A stretch of DNA of 27,350 nucleotides from a virus. The stretch covers positions 1 to 27,350 of IMG/VR virus record IMGVR_UViG_3300044835_000173; one strand, 5' to 3'. Positions 21,752-25,404 of the stretch are shown here, piece by piece. The translations under genes were made by a program, and so were the position numbers. The notes under the pieces were generated by a model. It was given only the letters and a program-made list of their open reading frames with translations. It was not told the origin of the DNA and ran no database searches. Positions within the stretch are counted from its first letter, which is position 1, and each line of letters opens with the position of its first letter.

Positions 21752-22036
21752 ATGAAGACGCTGTCCGAAATCGTTGGCGAAGGCTGCCTCACCGATAGCG
21801 TCATGGCGGGCCTTCCCGCCTTGGAACGCGGCCAGCTGCACGAGGATTTGGACCAGCTGCTGAGCCGCGCGCTCTCGGGCCAAGACGATGAGTTGCTGCG
21901 TGGCTTTCGATCCGCGCAGGCAAGCCTTCATAACAAGCCAGGCTTGTGCGCCACGGCCGAGGACTATTTGGAAGAGCTTGTCGATATCGCGGTGTCGATA
22001 CAGGTGCTGCGCGACGGTTTCGTCACGCCACGCTGA
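21752..22036 (+). CDS. Small acidic helical protein of unknown function
   Basis: This 94-residue frame starts at ATG 21752 with no clear ribosome binding site, 68 bases after the fibre gene. It is acidic and mostly helical (LPALERGQLHEDLDQLLSRA, then EDYLEELVDIAVSIQVLRDG). I recognise no family. Its last 14 bases overlap the 3' end of the convergent brnA gene. Possible roles include a fibre chaperone or a cargo gene, but neither can be shown. The start is uncertain because no upstream in-frame start exists before a TGA at 21728. Confidence 0.5.
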   Translation: MKTLSEIVGEGCLTDSVMAGLPALERGQLHEDLDQLLSRALSGQDDELLRGFRSAQASLHNKPGLCATAEDYLEELVDIAVSIQVLRDGFVTPR

Positions 22037-22304
22037 CCTTCCGCGCTCTCGGCTTATGCCGAGCCAGCACATCGTTGATCCGCGCCTGCCAGCCTTCGCC
22101 GGTTGCCTTGTAGGCCTGGACAACCTCGGGATCGAGCCGCAGCGAGACGCGTTCCTTTGCCTGGGCGCCCAGGGCCGGCCGGCCGGGCCCGCGCTTAAGC
22201 GCCTCGGCCACGTCCGGCATGTCGCTCTTGAGGGACCGCGCGCGCTTGAAGTCTGCCGCCGTCATCTCGGGAATATCGTCGGTCGCCCGTGCTTTCCTAG
22301 CCAT
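22023..22304 (-). CDS. brnA: BrnA-family antitoxin
   Basis: The 93-residue protein is expected to bind and neutralise BrnT and to repress the operon as a ribbon-helix-helix DNA-binding dimer. Its N-terminus (MARKARATDDIPEMTAADFK) is the toxin-binding half and the C-terminal segment (ERVSLRLDPEVVQAYKATGE, then GWQARINDVLARHKP) is the RHH region typical of BrnA. GRGPGRPAL-like basic residues (RGPGRPALG) lie between them. Its ATG overlaps the toxin stop by eight bases (22297-22304), so the two are translationally linked, toxin first, as in known brnTA operons. It lies antisense to the late phage transcript. Confidence 0.85.
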   Translation of the reverse strand: MARKARATDDIPEMTAADFKRARSLKSDMPDVAEALKRGPGRPALGAQAKERVSLRLDPEVVQAYKATGEGWQARINDVLARHKPRARKVSVA

Positions 22305-22557
22305 ATTGTCTTTCCTCTCTCCGGCTTGCCTTGCGGAAGCTGATGATCCGAACCTTCGTGCCGCGCACACAGAACGCCACCATGTAGAGCCTGCCGTCGC
22401 GCTTTGCGAAGGCCCAGAAGCGCGGCTCTGGATATGCGAAGCGCGTGTCCGGAAGGTATGTCGCGTTATCCCAATCGAGACGCTGGACGTCGGCGAAGTC
22501 GAGACCGTGCTTTGCGAGGTTCGCGATCCGCTTGGCTCCGTCCCATTCCGTTTCCAT
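22297..22557 (-). CDS. brnT: BrnT-family toxin (RelE-fold ribonuclease)
   Basis: The 86-residue protein is recognisable from METEWDGAKRIANLAKHGLD at the N-terminus (the 'eWD-xK-xxN-xxKHGvdF' signature) and from RGTKVRIISFRKASRREERQ at the C-terminus, which carries the conserved RIIS-RKA-R motif. BrnT toxins are RelE-like ribonucleases that slow translation; a match in fold is known for the family. The length is close to the usual 85-95 residues, so the gene looks intact. It is transcribed leftwards, with the promoter and operator at 22561-22613, and its start codon lies seven bases downstream of the -10, so its mRNA may be leaderless. Confidence 0.88.
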   Translation of the reverse strand: METEWDGAKRIANLAKHGLDFADVQRLDWDNATYLPDTRFAYPEPRFWAFAKRDGRLYMVAFCVRGTKVRIISFRKASRREERQYG

Positions 22558-23549: not shown

Positions 23550-24245
23550 ATGAACCTCAAGATGCTCGGCGGCGCCGGGTCGCTTCTGCTTGTCTGCGCC
23601 TCGGCCACCCGCGCGGACTCGATCAACTGCGCGAACCCGTCCGGTGGCGTCGAGGCCGGAATTTGTCAGCTGCTCTCCAAGCAGAGCGCCGGCACGGCGT
23701 CCGCGCCTTCGTCCGTGGTCACGAGCACGGTCCCGGCGCGCAGCGTGCCGATGTATACGGCCATGACGTCAGGCTTCGCGGCCTACGCGACGCCCACCGA
23801 TATGACCTGTCTTCCGGGAAGCGCCACGAAGACGGTTTATCCGGTCCAGCTTTTCGCGGCGCTGCATTCGACCTCTGCCAGCGTCTTCTCATTCTATTTC
23901 GTCAAGCGCTCGACAGCGGACAGCGGCGGCACGCCGACGACGCCCACGGTGGCGCAAATGGACAGCGCCAACGCGGCGCCCACCACGGCGCCGGTGTTCT
24001 ACGGCTCCGCGCCCGCGCTCGGAACCTCGGCCGGGACCACGTTCTATTTCGAGGCCTCGGGCGCGACGCTGACGGCCGCGAACACCAATTCGATCAGCAA
24101 CTTTTCGGGCGGATCGCAGATCTCGAGCCAAGGCCTCTTCATGGCGCTGCACGGCGCCAACGAGGAGCTTTGCGTGAACTTCAACGGCGCTGCACTTCCC
24201 GCCGGCTTCACCAGCAGCTGGACGTGGCAGTGGATCGAGCAATAA
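23550..24245 (+). CDS. Phage beta-domain protein with an N-terminal signal peptide
   Basis: This 231-residue protein begins MNLKMLGGAGSLLLVCASAT followed by RADS, which has a basic start, hydrophobic core and an AxA-like cut site near residue 22, so export is likely. The rest resembles a beta domain common in phage structural proteins: a MTCLPGSATKTVYPVQLFA strand, FYFVKRSTADSGGTPTTPTV, and an end with LFMALHGANEELCVNFNGAA and a WQWIEQ terminus. ATG 23550 has AGGAGA upstream. Virion proteins rarely carry a signal peptide, so it may be a periplasmic or secreted derivative, or a membrane-anchored factor expressed in the lysogen. Four cysteines (C26, C39, C87, C209 by count, approximate) could form disulfides. 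Confidence 0.65.
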   Translation: MNLKMLGGAGSLLLVCASATRADSINCANPSGGVEAGICQLLSKQSAGTASAPSSVVTSTVPARSVPMYTAMTSGFAAYATPTDMTCLPGSATKTVYPVQLFAALHSTSASVFSFYFVKRSTADSGGTPTTPTVAQMDSANAAPTTAPVFYGSAPALGTSAGTTFYFEASGATLTAANTNSISNFSGGSQISSQGLFMALHGANEELCVNFNGAALPAGFTSSWTWQWIEQ

Positions 24246-24253
24246 CCCAGACC

Positions 24254-24276
24254 GGCGCGGTTTAAACCGCCGCGCC
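24254..24276 (+). terminator. Hairpin after the signal-peptide gene, possible weak terminator
   Basis: GGCGCGG (24254-24260) pairs with CCGCGCC (24270-24276) around a nine-base loop, and an alternative palindrome CGGTTTAAACCG lies inside. No T-tract follows (CATCATCC), so it may attenuate rather than stop transcription. It lies nine bases past the stop of the preceding gene and opens the structured stretch that extends to 24436. Confidence 0.4.
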
Positions 24277-24307
24277 CATCATCCATTCAACACGCCCCGT
24301 CCGGGGG

Positions 24308-24436
24308 CCATCCGACACCTCGAGCACGAAGCACCTGTCTCTCTGGTCCCCTTGAGGGTGGCTGGTGCGGCCCCGTGTGCTCGCGGTCGTCGGATGGTCA
24401 CCGGATGCGGCGGACCCGCATCTAACCCTCAAGGAG
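24308..24436 (+). promoter_or_regulatory. Structured RNA leader with a loop-to-ribosome-site pseudoknot
   Basis: A long laddered hairpin is formed by CCATCCGAC (24308-24316) with GTCGGATGG (24389-24397), CGAGCAC (24321-24327) with GTGCTCG (24377-24383) and GCACC (24331-24335) with GGTGC (24364-24368). The apical loop contains CCTTGAGGGT (24350-24359), a perfect ten-base complement of ACCCTCAAGG (24425-24434), which includes most of the AAGGAG ribosome binding site of the next gene. Between the two sits a second hairpin, GATGCGG (24404-24410) with CCGCATC (24416-24422). Loop-to-ribosome-site pairing of this kind acts as a translation switch in some riboswitches. The pairings are seen; regulation is inferred. 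Confidence 0.6.
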
Positions 24437-24443
24437 AATGAAC

Positions 24444-24785
24444 ATGTCCATCCTTACCGCGCTCGAAAGCATCATCGCGCCCGAGCTCAACTACGCGGAG
24501 CAGAAGCTGGAATCGGTCGGCTCCGCGCTGGCCGCCGGCGTCACCGTGATCTTCAACGGCTTCTTCAGCAGCCAGCGGCTGATCTTCACCAACATCTCGG
24601 CGTTCTGGCAGGCGAAGCACAAGGCCGCGCTCGCGGCCGACGCTTCCGCGCTCGCCGCCATCGAGCAGGCCTCGACGGCCACGCTCCAGGAATTCTGTGC
24701 CGAAGAGGCCGCGGAGTTCCAGAAGGAAAAGCTGGCCTTCATCACCCTGCTCGAATCCTCGGTCAAGCAGAGCACGACGAGCTAG
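24444..24785 (+). CDS. Small helical protein of unknown function under the structured leader
   Basis: ATG 24444 is chosen because AAGGAG at 24431-24436 lies seven bases upstream, whereas ATG 24438 is only one base from it. The 113-residue protein is Ala-rich and helical: an amphipathic ILTALESIIAPELNYAEQKL, a hydrophobic middle (VGSALAAGVTVIFNGFFSSQ) that could be membrane-active, and a charged C-terminal helix (EFCAEEAAEFQKEKLAFITL). I recognise no family. A hydrophobic helix between charged helices could suit a small membrane or virion protein. Its ribosome site is the target of the loop complement described at 24308-24436. Confidence 0.65.
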   Translation: MSILTALESIIAPELNYAEQKLESVGSALAAGVTVIFNGFFSSQRLIFTNISAFWQAKHKAALAADASALAAIEQASTATLQEFCAEEAAEFQKEKLAFITLLESSVKQSTTS

Positions 24786-24900
24786 GCGCGCCATGCGCGA
24801 CCTGTGGCGCCTCGTGCGCCGATTTCCCTGTTTCCGACGCATCCGGCCTGAACGGCGTCGTGTGACGGGCATCCTCGCGTTCGGGCTTCAAGGAGTCTCC

Positions 24901-25209
24901 ATGTCCAAGATCATCCGCGTCGGCGGAGCCAGCACCACGGCCACCGCCCTTTTCGTCGATCCCCAGGGCGTCGCCCAGCCGCTCACCAGCAAGCCGGTGT
25001 GGGCGGCCTCGCCCGATGGTCTCGTCACGCTCACGCCGGCCGACGACGGCATGACGTGCGCCATCGCGCCCGTCGCCGCTGGCGACGTCACCGTCACGGT
25101 CTCGGCCGAAGCCGATCCGACGCCGGGCGTGAACACTGTCACCGGCACCGCGTCGCTCACCGTCTCGCCCGACGAGGACACGACGGCGACGATCACCTTC
25201 AGCGACTGA
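24901..25209 (+). CDS. Small Ig-like beta domain protein
   Basis: The 102-residue protein starts at ATG 24901 with AAGGAG at 24890-24895. It is a single bacterial Ig-like (Big2-type) domain: SKPVWAASPDGLVTLTPADD followed by MTCAIAPVAAGDVTVTVSAE and a last strand TASLTVSPDEDTTATITFSD. Such domains decorate phage capsids or tails and bind surface sugars loosely. An in-frame ATG at 24793 would add an arginine-rich segment (MRDLWRLVRRFPCFRRIRPE) but has no ribosome site. The 115 bases upstream hold two small hairpins, GGCGC/GCGCC at 24806-24820 and GACGC/GCGTC at 24836-24859. Confidence 0.7.
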   Translation: MSKIIRVGGASTTATALFVDPQGVAQPLTSKPVWAASPDGLVTLTPADDGMTCAIAPVAAGDVTVTVSAEADPTPGVNTVTGTASLTVSPDEDTTATITFSD

Positions 25210-25231
25210 ACGGCCACAACACTGGGAACGG

Positions 25232-25251
25232 CCGCGGGCTCCGGCTCGCGG
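25232..25251 (+). terminator. Strong hairpin just upstream of the tRNA
   Basis: CCGCGGGC (25232-25239) pairs with GCTCGCGG (25244-25251), eight pairs including one G-T, around a TCCG tetraloop. There is no T-tract. It lies six bases before the tRNA, where it could act as a processing barrier or weak terminator after the Ig-like gene. Confidence 0.4.
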
Positions 25252-25257
25252 TCGCGC

Positions 25258-25334
25258 GCCGGGTTAGCTCAGTCGGTAGAGCAACCGATTTGTAATCGGT
25301 AGGTCGCGGGTTCAATTCCACGCACCTGGCACCA
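25258..25334 (+). tRNA. tRNA-Thr (anticodon UGU) with a bulged T arm
   Basis: The cloverleaf is visible: acceptor GCCGGGT (25258-25264) with ACCTGGC (25324-25330) including one G-T pair, D stem GCTC/GAGC with loop AGTCGGTA, anticodon stem ACCGA/TCGGT around TTTGTAA with anticodon TGT at 25291-25293, and encoded CCA (25332-25334). The T stem GCGGG (25306-25310) and loop TTCAATT are followed by CCACGC, one base longer than expected, so A25320 is bulged if the stem is to pair. This could be a real tRNA with an odd T arm or a decaying copy. Threonine ACA codons are the presumed target; a role in late translation is inferred. Confidence 0.75.
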
Positions 25335-25404
25335 ATTCGCTCCAGAGCGATCCGCCGCGCGTCGGTCACGCGCTATCTCCATCATCTCACACAGGAGAAC
25401 GACT

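Follow-up and report, generated by a model that had tools for sequence, protein, structure and literature searches.

A recurring hairpin leader complementary to its own ribosome-binding site suggests an undescribed translational switch in alphaproteobacterial phages

To our knowledge, few leader switches of phages are known beyond coliphages. Phages are known to time gene expression by sequestering ribosome-binding sites (RBSs), and in the T4 genes e, soc, 49 and I-TevI it is structure in the phage mRNA that sequesters the Shine-Dalgarno (SD) sequence, where expression can be timed through the presence of the 5' strand in one transcript and its absence from another (PMC3014915). Among worked examples of such timing, T4 gene e comes closest, by analogy, to the leader described here, in which mRNA structure would likewise sequester the SD. 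In the T4 genes, however, the RBS forms one side of a plain local hairpin, whereas here the capturing loop would sit at the tip of a separate, bulged hairpin some distance away, and a second hairpin adjoins the RBS. Leader pseudoknots also take part in translational control in T4/T2 gene 32, which is autoregulated by gp32 (PMC3014915), and in ColIb-P9 repZ, where the pseudoknot lies upstream of the RBS (PMC8383071). In gene 32, the role of the pseudoknot is to nucleate protein binding; it makes no pairs with the SD and has no sequence relation to our leader. The repZ pseudoknot is an activator controlled by an antisense RNA, whereas the pairing considered here would cover the SD. The leader of Mu mom is, like ours, a hairpin serving a single small phage gene, with a CC(N)2-3GAG loop (PMC6483171), but its start codon lies within the stem and no loop/SD kissing is described for it, and the four phage records studied here hold no homologue of its activator Com. 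Finally, U-turn loops of the YUNR type speed RNA-RNA pairing (PMC6562991). The UUGA loop of our leader fits this type, as do the loops that give fast contact in antisense systems such as hok/Sok (PMC6562991), although those systems involve two molecules and here the partners lie 63-65 nt apart in one leader at three of four loci. The principle of RBS sequestration is known, and the form seen here, a distant bulged hairpin's apical loop combined with an RBS-adjacent hairpin, appears to be new.

The window, by which we mean the whole stretch of DNA analyzed, corresponds to an IMG/VR virus record 27,350 bases long, in which small genes follow a siphophage-like tail module. The interval from the stop codon at 24245 to the ATG at 24444 contains a structured leader. 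That ATG opens a plus-strand gene of 113 codons (24444-24785) for a predicted all-helical protein; another ATG in the same frame, at 24438, is too near the SD to serve as the start. All leader features lie on the plus strand. The main hairpin, P1, has its 5' arm at 24306-24335 (P1a 24306-24319, P1b 24321-24328, P1c 24331-24335) and its 3' arm at 24364-24399 (P1c' 24364-24368, P1b' 24376-24383, P1a' 24385-24399), the latter carrying a 7-nt bulge (24369-24375) that occupies the same place in the folds of two relatives, L002 and L009. The original prediction had placed three helices here, of 9 bp (24308-24316/24389-24397), 7 bp (24321-24327/24377-24383) and 5 bp (24331-24335/24364-24368). These helices stand, and the positions it gave for helices, loop, RBS, SD and ATG are all right, but the structure reaches further than proposed, as the outer stem can be lengthened as far as 24293/24412 and a 7-bp hairpin, P2 (24404-24410/24416-24422, loop 24411-24415), also belongs to it. 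P2 ends 2 nt upstream of the RBS motif ACCCUCAAGGAG (24425-24436), which consists of the SD AAGGAG (24431-24436) and a conserved upstream ACCCUC.

The apex of P1 carries a 17-nt motif, P1d (24346-24362), with the sequence GUCCCC-UUGA-GGG-U-GGC and a YUNR-type UUGA loop. Within it lies the anti-RBS CCUUGAGGGU (24350-24359; given as CCTTGAGGGT in the original prediction), which forms a perfect 10-nt complement to ACCCTCAAGG (24425-24434), as had been claimed; the ribosome site that the loop would pair at the gene starting at 24444 reads ACCCUCAAGG(AG). The match does lie at the hairpin apex, enclosed in the small conserved apical hairpin with UUGA at its tip and not presented as a fully open loop. 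The minimum-energy fold of the window positions the bases of P1d slightly differently, and the same small hairpin can be drawn. As expected from the start, such a match is unlikely by chance: its probability at the window locus alone was 0.0044 with the loop shuffled, 0.001 with the RBS side shuffled and 0.00045 with the whole leader shuffled. We compared 351 SD-ATG sites from the retrieved loci, some of which overlap: an upstream complement of 10 nt was found exclusively in copies of the element, and the best unrelated sites reached 9 nt (3 of the 351). The leader also folds far more stably than dinucleotide-shuffled sequence, the comparison named beforehand as able to overturn the prediction: the fold of 24300-24446 has -73.5 kcal/mol against -57.6 +/- 3.9 for the shuffles (z -4.1), none of 200 being as good, and the P1 hairpin alone gave a z of -4.0.

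A pattern combining loop and RBS identified 13 loci in viral contigs, of which L002 and L009 share the architecture and the remainder do not. As these two were first retrieved by a pattern that demands the loop/RBS match, we guarded against circularity with searches free of the RBS, using either the 16-nt loop motif alone or the outer stem plus loop. Among the matches listed, these searches recovered L009 and L002 again, the latter together with L079, an alphaproteobacterial MAG contig holding the same prophage, and newly found L017; all three real hairpins among these matches have the ACCCUCAAGGAG complement before an ATG. The sole other match to the hairpin pattern, L143, was rejected as it sits inside a coding gene. 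The matches listed thus comprise three independent relatives, all from alphaproteobacterial phages or prophages. The distance from loop to RBS is 63-65 nt in the window, L002 and L009. In L017, the complement ACCCTCAAGGAG is absent within 130 nt of the hairpin but sits 359 nt further on, at a 97-aa gene's RBS, where the locus would be expected to hold 0.03 chance copies of the 9-mer; about 320 nt containing hairpins lies between P1 and P2/RBS. The roughly 300 nt at 7234-7530 of L017, within this interval, hold a possible 27-codon ORF (MTAPATITEDHQPSRDRVLAAYRAWFD) besides hairpins.

R1, a covariance model that we derived from the relatives L002, L009 and L017 with the window excluded, had its best window match at 24306-24399 (20.8 bits, E 0.012). 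Applied to 385 genomes of the class of genome G001, the model recovered G001 itself, a real copy, and ten other matches (E 0.0016-0.94) that on inspection lacked the apical motif and were discarded. A looser free-loop pattern gave 23 further loci in viral contigs, with a best loop/RBS complement of 8 nt, and none was real. Besides G001, pattern searches of 398 genomes from the order of G480, 96 from the order of G001 and a sample of the class returned chance matches only. BLAST with the L002 leader gave no match in phages and plasmids, and scans with neighbouring proteins gave no further phages having the element. Within the 4.8-Mb genome G001, ACCCUCAAGGAG occurs in one copy only.

The same architecture, a long P1 hairpin with a 7-nt 3' bulge and the apical motif followed by P2 and the RBS motif, is conserved at all four loci. 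The apical motif is identical in the window, L002 and L017 and differs by one base in L009, and its UUGA, which fits the sequence 5'-YUNR, is identical in all four. The RBS motif is likewise identical at 12 of 12 bases, with a variable spacer to the ATG, and the spacer from P2 to ACCC is exactly 2 nt at every locus. The stems are more variable: P1a keeps a conserved CCAUCCG/CGGAUGG while its outer part covaries with the relatives, P1b and P1c differ in sequence and retain the same arrangement (window CGAGCACG... and GCACC; L002 CGCUGCG and UGCUCA), and P2 recurs at every locus, showing one two-sided change, several G-U changes and loops of 5 or 6 nt. From P1a, P1d, P2 and RBS segments cut out of the four loci and put end to end we made one alignment (A9), in which 99.1% of 116 structure cells are paired, a figure biased by the segments having been hand-picked to fit the structure. 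Three pairs in this alignment show two-sided changes, two of them in P1a (columns 2 and 11) and one in P2 (column 44), and five more show one-sided changes. The covariation score, subject to the same bias, is 0.236; slid structures score 0.029-0.065, and 9 of 500 shuffles attain the observed value. The window, L002, L009 and L017 carry a structured RNA element with a shared architecture and covarying flanking stems.

The compensating changes predicted for homologous leaders were thus present in the flanking helices, but not in the loop/RBS helix, where nine pairs are invariant across the four loci, the terminal pair is broken in L009 and no compensatory change occurs. The complement accordingly measures 10 bp in the window, L002 and L017 and 9 bp in L009. 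Because this helix is invariant, the proposed pairing rests on conserved complementarity and not on covariation. Elsewhere in P1, the bulge reads GGGACGC in L002, L009 and L017, and in L002 and L017 its GGGAC complements the GUCCC of P1d; the window bulge, GGCCCCG, lacks GGGAC, and we claim no shared role.

Neither the RNA nor its target could be assigned to a described family, in line with the original suggestion that both may be new. At the gathering score, Rfam (release 15) gave tRNA matches only across the whole window, and the window and L002 leaders had no meaningful sub-threshold match; nor was the element found in the open-access literature searched. The 113-aa protein, modelled from its single sequence as one long helix (pLDDT 79, pTM 0.35), matches no family in PHROG, Pfam or PADLOC and has no homologue in the viral contigs, genome contigs and phages searched. 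The corresponding genes of L002, L009 and L017 encode 97-aa proteins of 84-88% mutual identity and no known family, with a helical model of low confidence (pLDDT 61, pTM 0.60) and no useful match from Foldseek in viral models (best E 0.28) or a PDB sequence search (best E 0.47). Homology between the 113-aa and 97-aa proteins was undetectable by hhalign (probability 0.1); given their like size and place, they may still be distantly related. The upstream neighbours differ, being a 231-aa gene in the window and ORFs of 885 aa in L002, 151 aa in L009 and 133 aa in L017, and so the leader and its gene seem to travel together as a cassette. Because a terminator-like hairpin and T run follow directly 3' of the 97-aa gene in L002 and L009, that gene is probably the last of its transcript there, judging from sequence.

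Several other features were observed around these loci. Beyond the 97-aa gene and its terminator, L002 (1-1501, minus strand) and L009 (1-1504, minus strand) carry HipA/HipB-like genes (PF07804, PF13657 and HTH_3 in L002), which in L002 have their own strong sigma-70-like promoter. In the window, the opposite strand of the tail-end region encodes the toxin BrnT (PF04365) together with the antitoxin BrnA (PF14384) (22023-22557, minus), a pair that is likely a moron, and a tRNA-Thr (TGT) with encoded CCA lies among small phage genes (25258-25334, plus). The gene following that of the 113-aa protein (24901-25209, plus) encodes 102 aa and, judged by eye, looks beta-rich and Ig-like. Its product, possibly a decoration protein, matches nothing in Pfam and has no significant match in PHROG. 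Its RBS, UCAAGGAG at about 24889-24896 before the ATG at 24901, has 6 nt complementary to the same apical loop, and the region 24885-24900 may, from this short match, be a weaker second target.

Energy calculations were used to evaluate the proposed contact. Unfolding both partners would cost 8.7-10.2 kcal/mol and the 9-10 bp duplex would return 15.2-17.1, giving predicted kissing gains of -8.4, -6.9 and -6.2 kcal/mol with the loop/pseudoknot penalty excluded. The gain is moderate because the loop/RBS pairing competes with the local P1d hairpin, and in these models the contact is energetically plausible rather than overwhelming. At all four loci, the hairpin is predicted to be 8-10.6 kcal/mol more stable on the sense strand of the gene than on the opposite strand, because G.U pairs are used; this bias therefore favours an element that acts as an RNA produced together with the gene. 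The outermost extension in the window, P0, pairs 24293-24304 with 24401-24412 (fold of 24285-24446), and similar extensions surround P1 in the folds of L002, L009 and L017. Since the 3' strand of P0 overlaps the 5' strand of P2, the two stems are mutually exclusive in the window, where the fold has -79.9 kcal/mol with P0 and -75.0 with P2 enforced; the corresponding values in L009 are -77.1 and -76.0, and the best fold of L002 already includes P2. In these models, P0 and P2 are possible alternative pairings.

The recurrence of fold and match in the relatives suggests an undescribed on/off switch for protein synthesis. We consider it probable, with some reserve, that the leader is an undescribed cis-acting RNA of temperate phages of alphaproteobacteria, in which the apical loop captures the SD and represses translation until release. 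We infer that a kissing helix forms, that it represses and that a trigger relieves it, as follows. P1 would fold first on the transcript, before the RBS is made and thus perhaps with a kinetic advantage in pairing, and its apical UUGA loop would be shaped for starting RNA-RNA contact. When the nascent ACCCUCAAGGAG appears beside P2, the loop would pair with it over 10 bp in a kissing or pseudoknot contact, and the duplex would block 30S binding, so that the small helical protein would not be made from the long transcript. Removing or opening P1 would then turn translation on, whether through RNase III cutting of the long stem, protein binding to P1, the P0/P2 alternative pairing or a transcript starting downstream of P1. 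Of the pseudoknot translation switch originally proposed, the complement is found at all four loci, but the pairing itself does not covary, its partners are 359 nt apart in L017, and switching and its direction remain our reading of these features. It is also conceivable, though we are doubtful, that the element is a portable phage module whose U-turn apical loop captures the SD of whichever gene follows P2, the RNA being conserved and at least two unrelated small helical proteins being cargo.

The long interval in L017, about 320 nt with hairpins between P1 and P2/RBS, weakens the case for a contact in cis at that locus and raises the question of whether P1 instead becomes a small RNA of its own, by processing or by separate transcription, and represses the gene in trans, possibly also contacting other phage RBSs. 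The complement in L017 is still perfect across 359 nt with intervening hairpins, YUNR loops are typical of antisense pairs, and UCAAGGAG at the RBS of the next window gene would offer a further target. However, the loop lies 63-65 nt from the RBS at the other three loci, P1 is everywhere just upstream of the putatively controlled gene, and no sigma-70-like promoter was detected in the leader or elsewhere in positions 23900-25400 of the window, in a scan that does not cover phage-specific promoters, which together make a trans-acting P1 RNA unlikely. We regard as improbable that P1, P2 or both are instead a protein site, either for autoregulation by the small helical protein or for an activator like Com of Mu, with the match letting one protein or one displacement control both. 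The loop CCUUGAG fits the Com motif CC(N)2-3GAG, and the stems vary around a nearly invariant apical motif; but the motif match is short and may be chance, no Com zinc-ribbon protein (PF10122) scored above the cut-off in the four phage records, which may be fragments (G000, G002, G003 and G004), or in G001, and a protein site alone leaves the six extra loop-complementary bases of the RBS motif unexplained.

The direction of control could also be the reverse, with the pairing activating translation by positioning the RBS beside P2, as in a standby site or in ColIb-P9 repZ, which requires a pseudoknot upstream of its RBS (PMC8383071). The fixed 2-nt spacing of P2 from the motif at all four loci would agree with this, but a 10-bp duplex would hold four of the six AAGGAG bases and should block 16S rRNA, and we think activation quite improbable. 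Still less credible is that the element works as DNA, for instance as an operator, an inverted repeat or a site of recombination, and that the RBS match is a by-product. The loop has dyad symmetry (CCCT-N2-AGGG) within a long inverted repeat, and the cassette occurs in different gene contexts; against this stand the G.U pairs in the stems and the opposite strand that folds 8-10.6 kcal/mol worse at four loci. The leader itself shows no terminator-like site (hairpin plus T tract) on its plus strand. The least credible reading is chance complementarity on an ordinary hairpin, retained through shared descent alone. There are only four independent loci among the matches listed, perhaps from one common ancestor, yet loop and RBS motif are unchanged even though P1b and P1c have been replaced and the proteins are not detectably similar, and the match has a chance probability of about 0.0005-0.004 in the window alone.

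Capture of the SD by the apical loop, the reading we prefer, lends itself to experiment, as the conserved 6-nt extension of the RBS allows a direct mutational test of loop capture with the AAGGAG core intact. If the reading is true, temperate phages of alphaproteobacteria would carry an undescribed structured RNA outside Rfam, in which an antisense-type loop targets its own mRNA.
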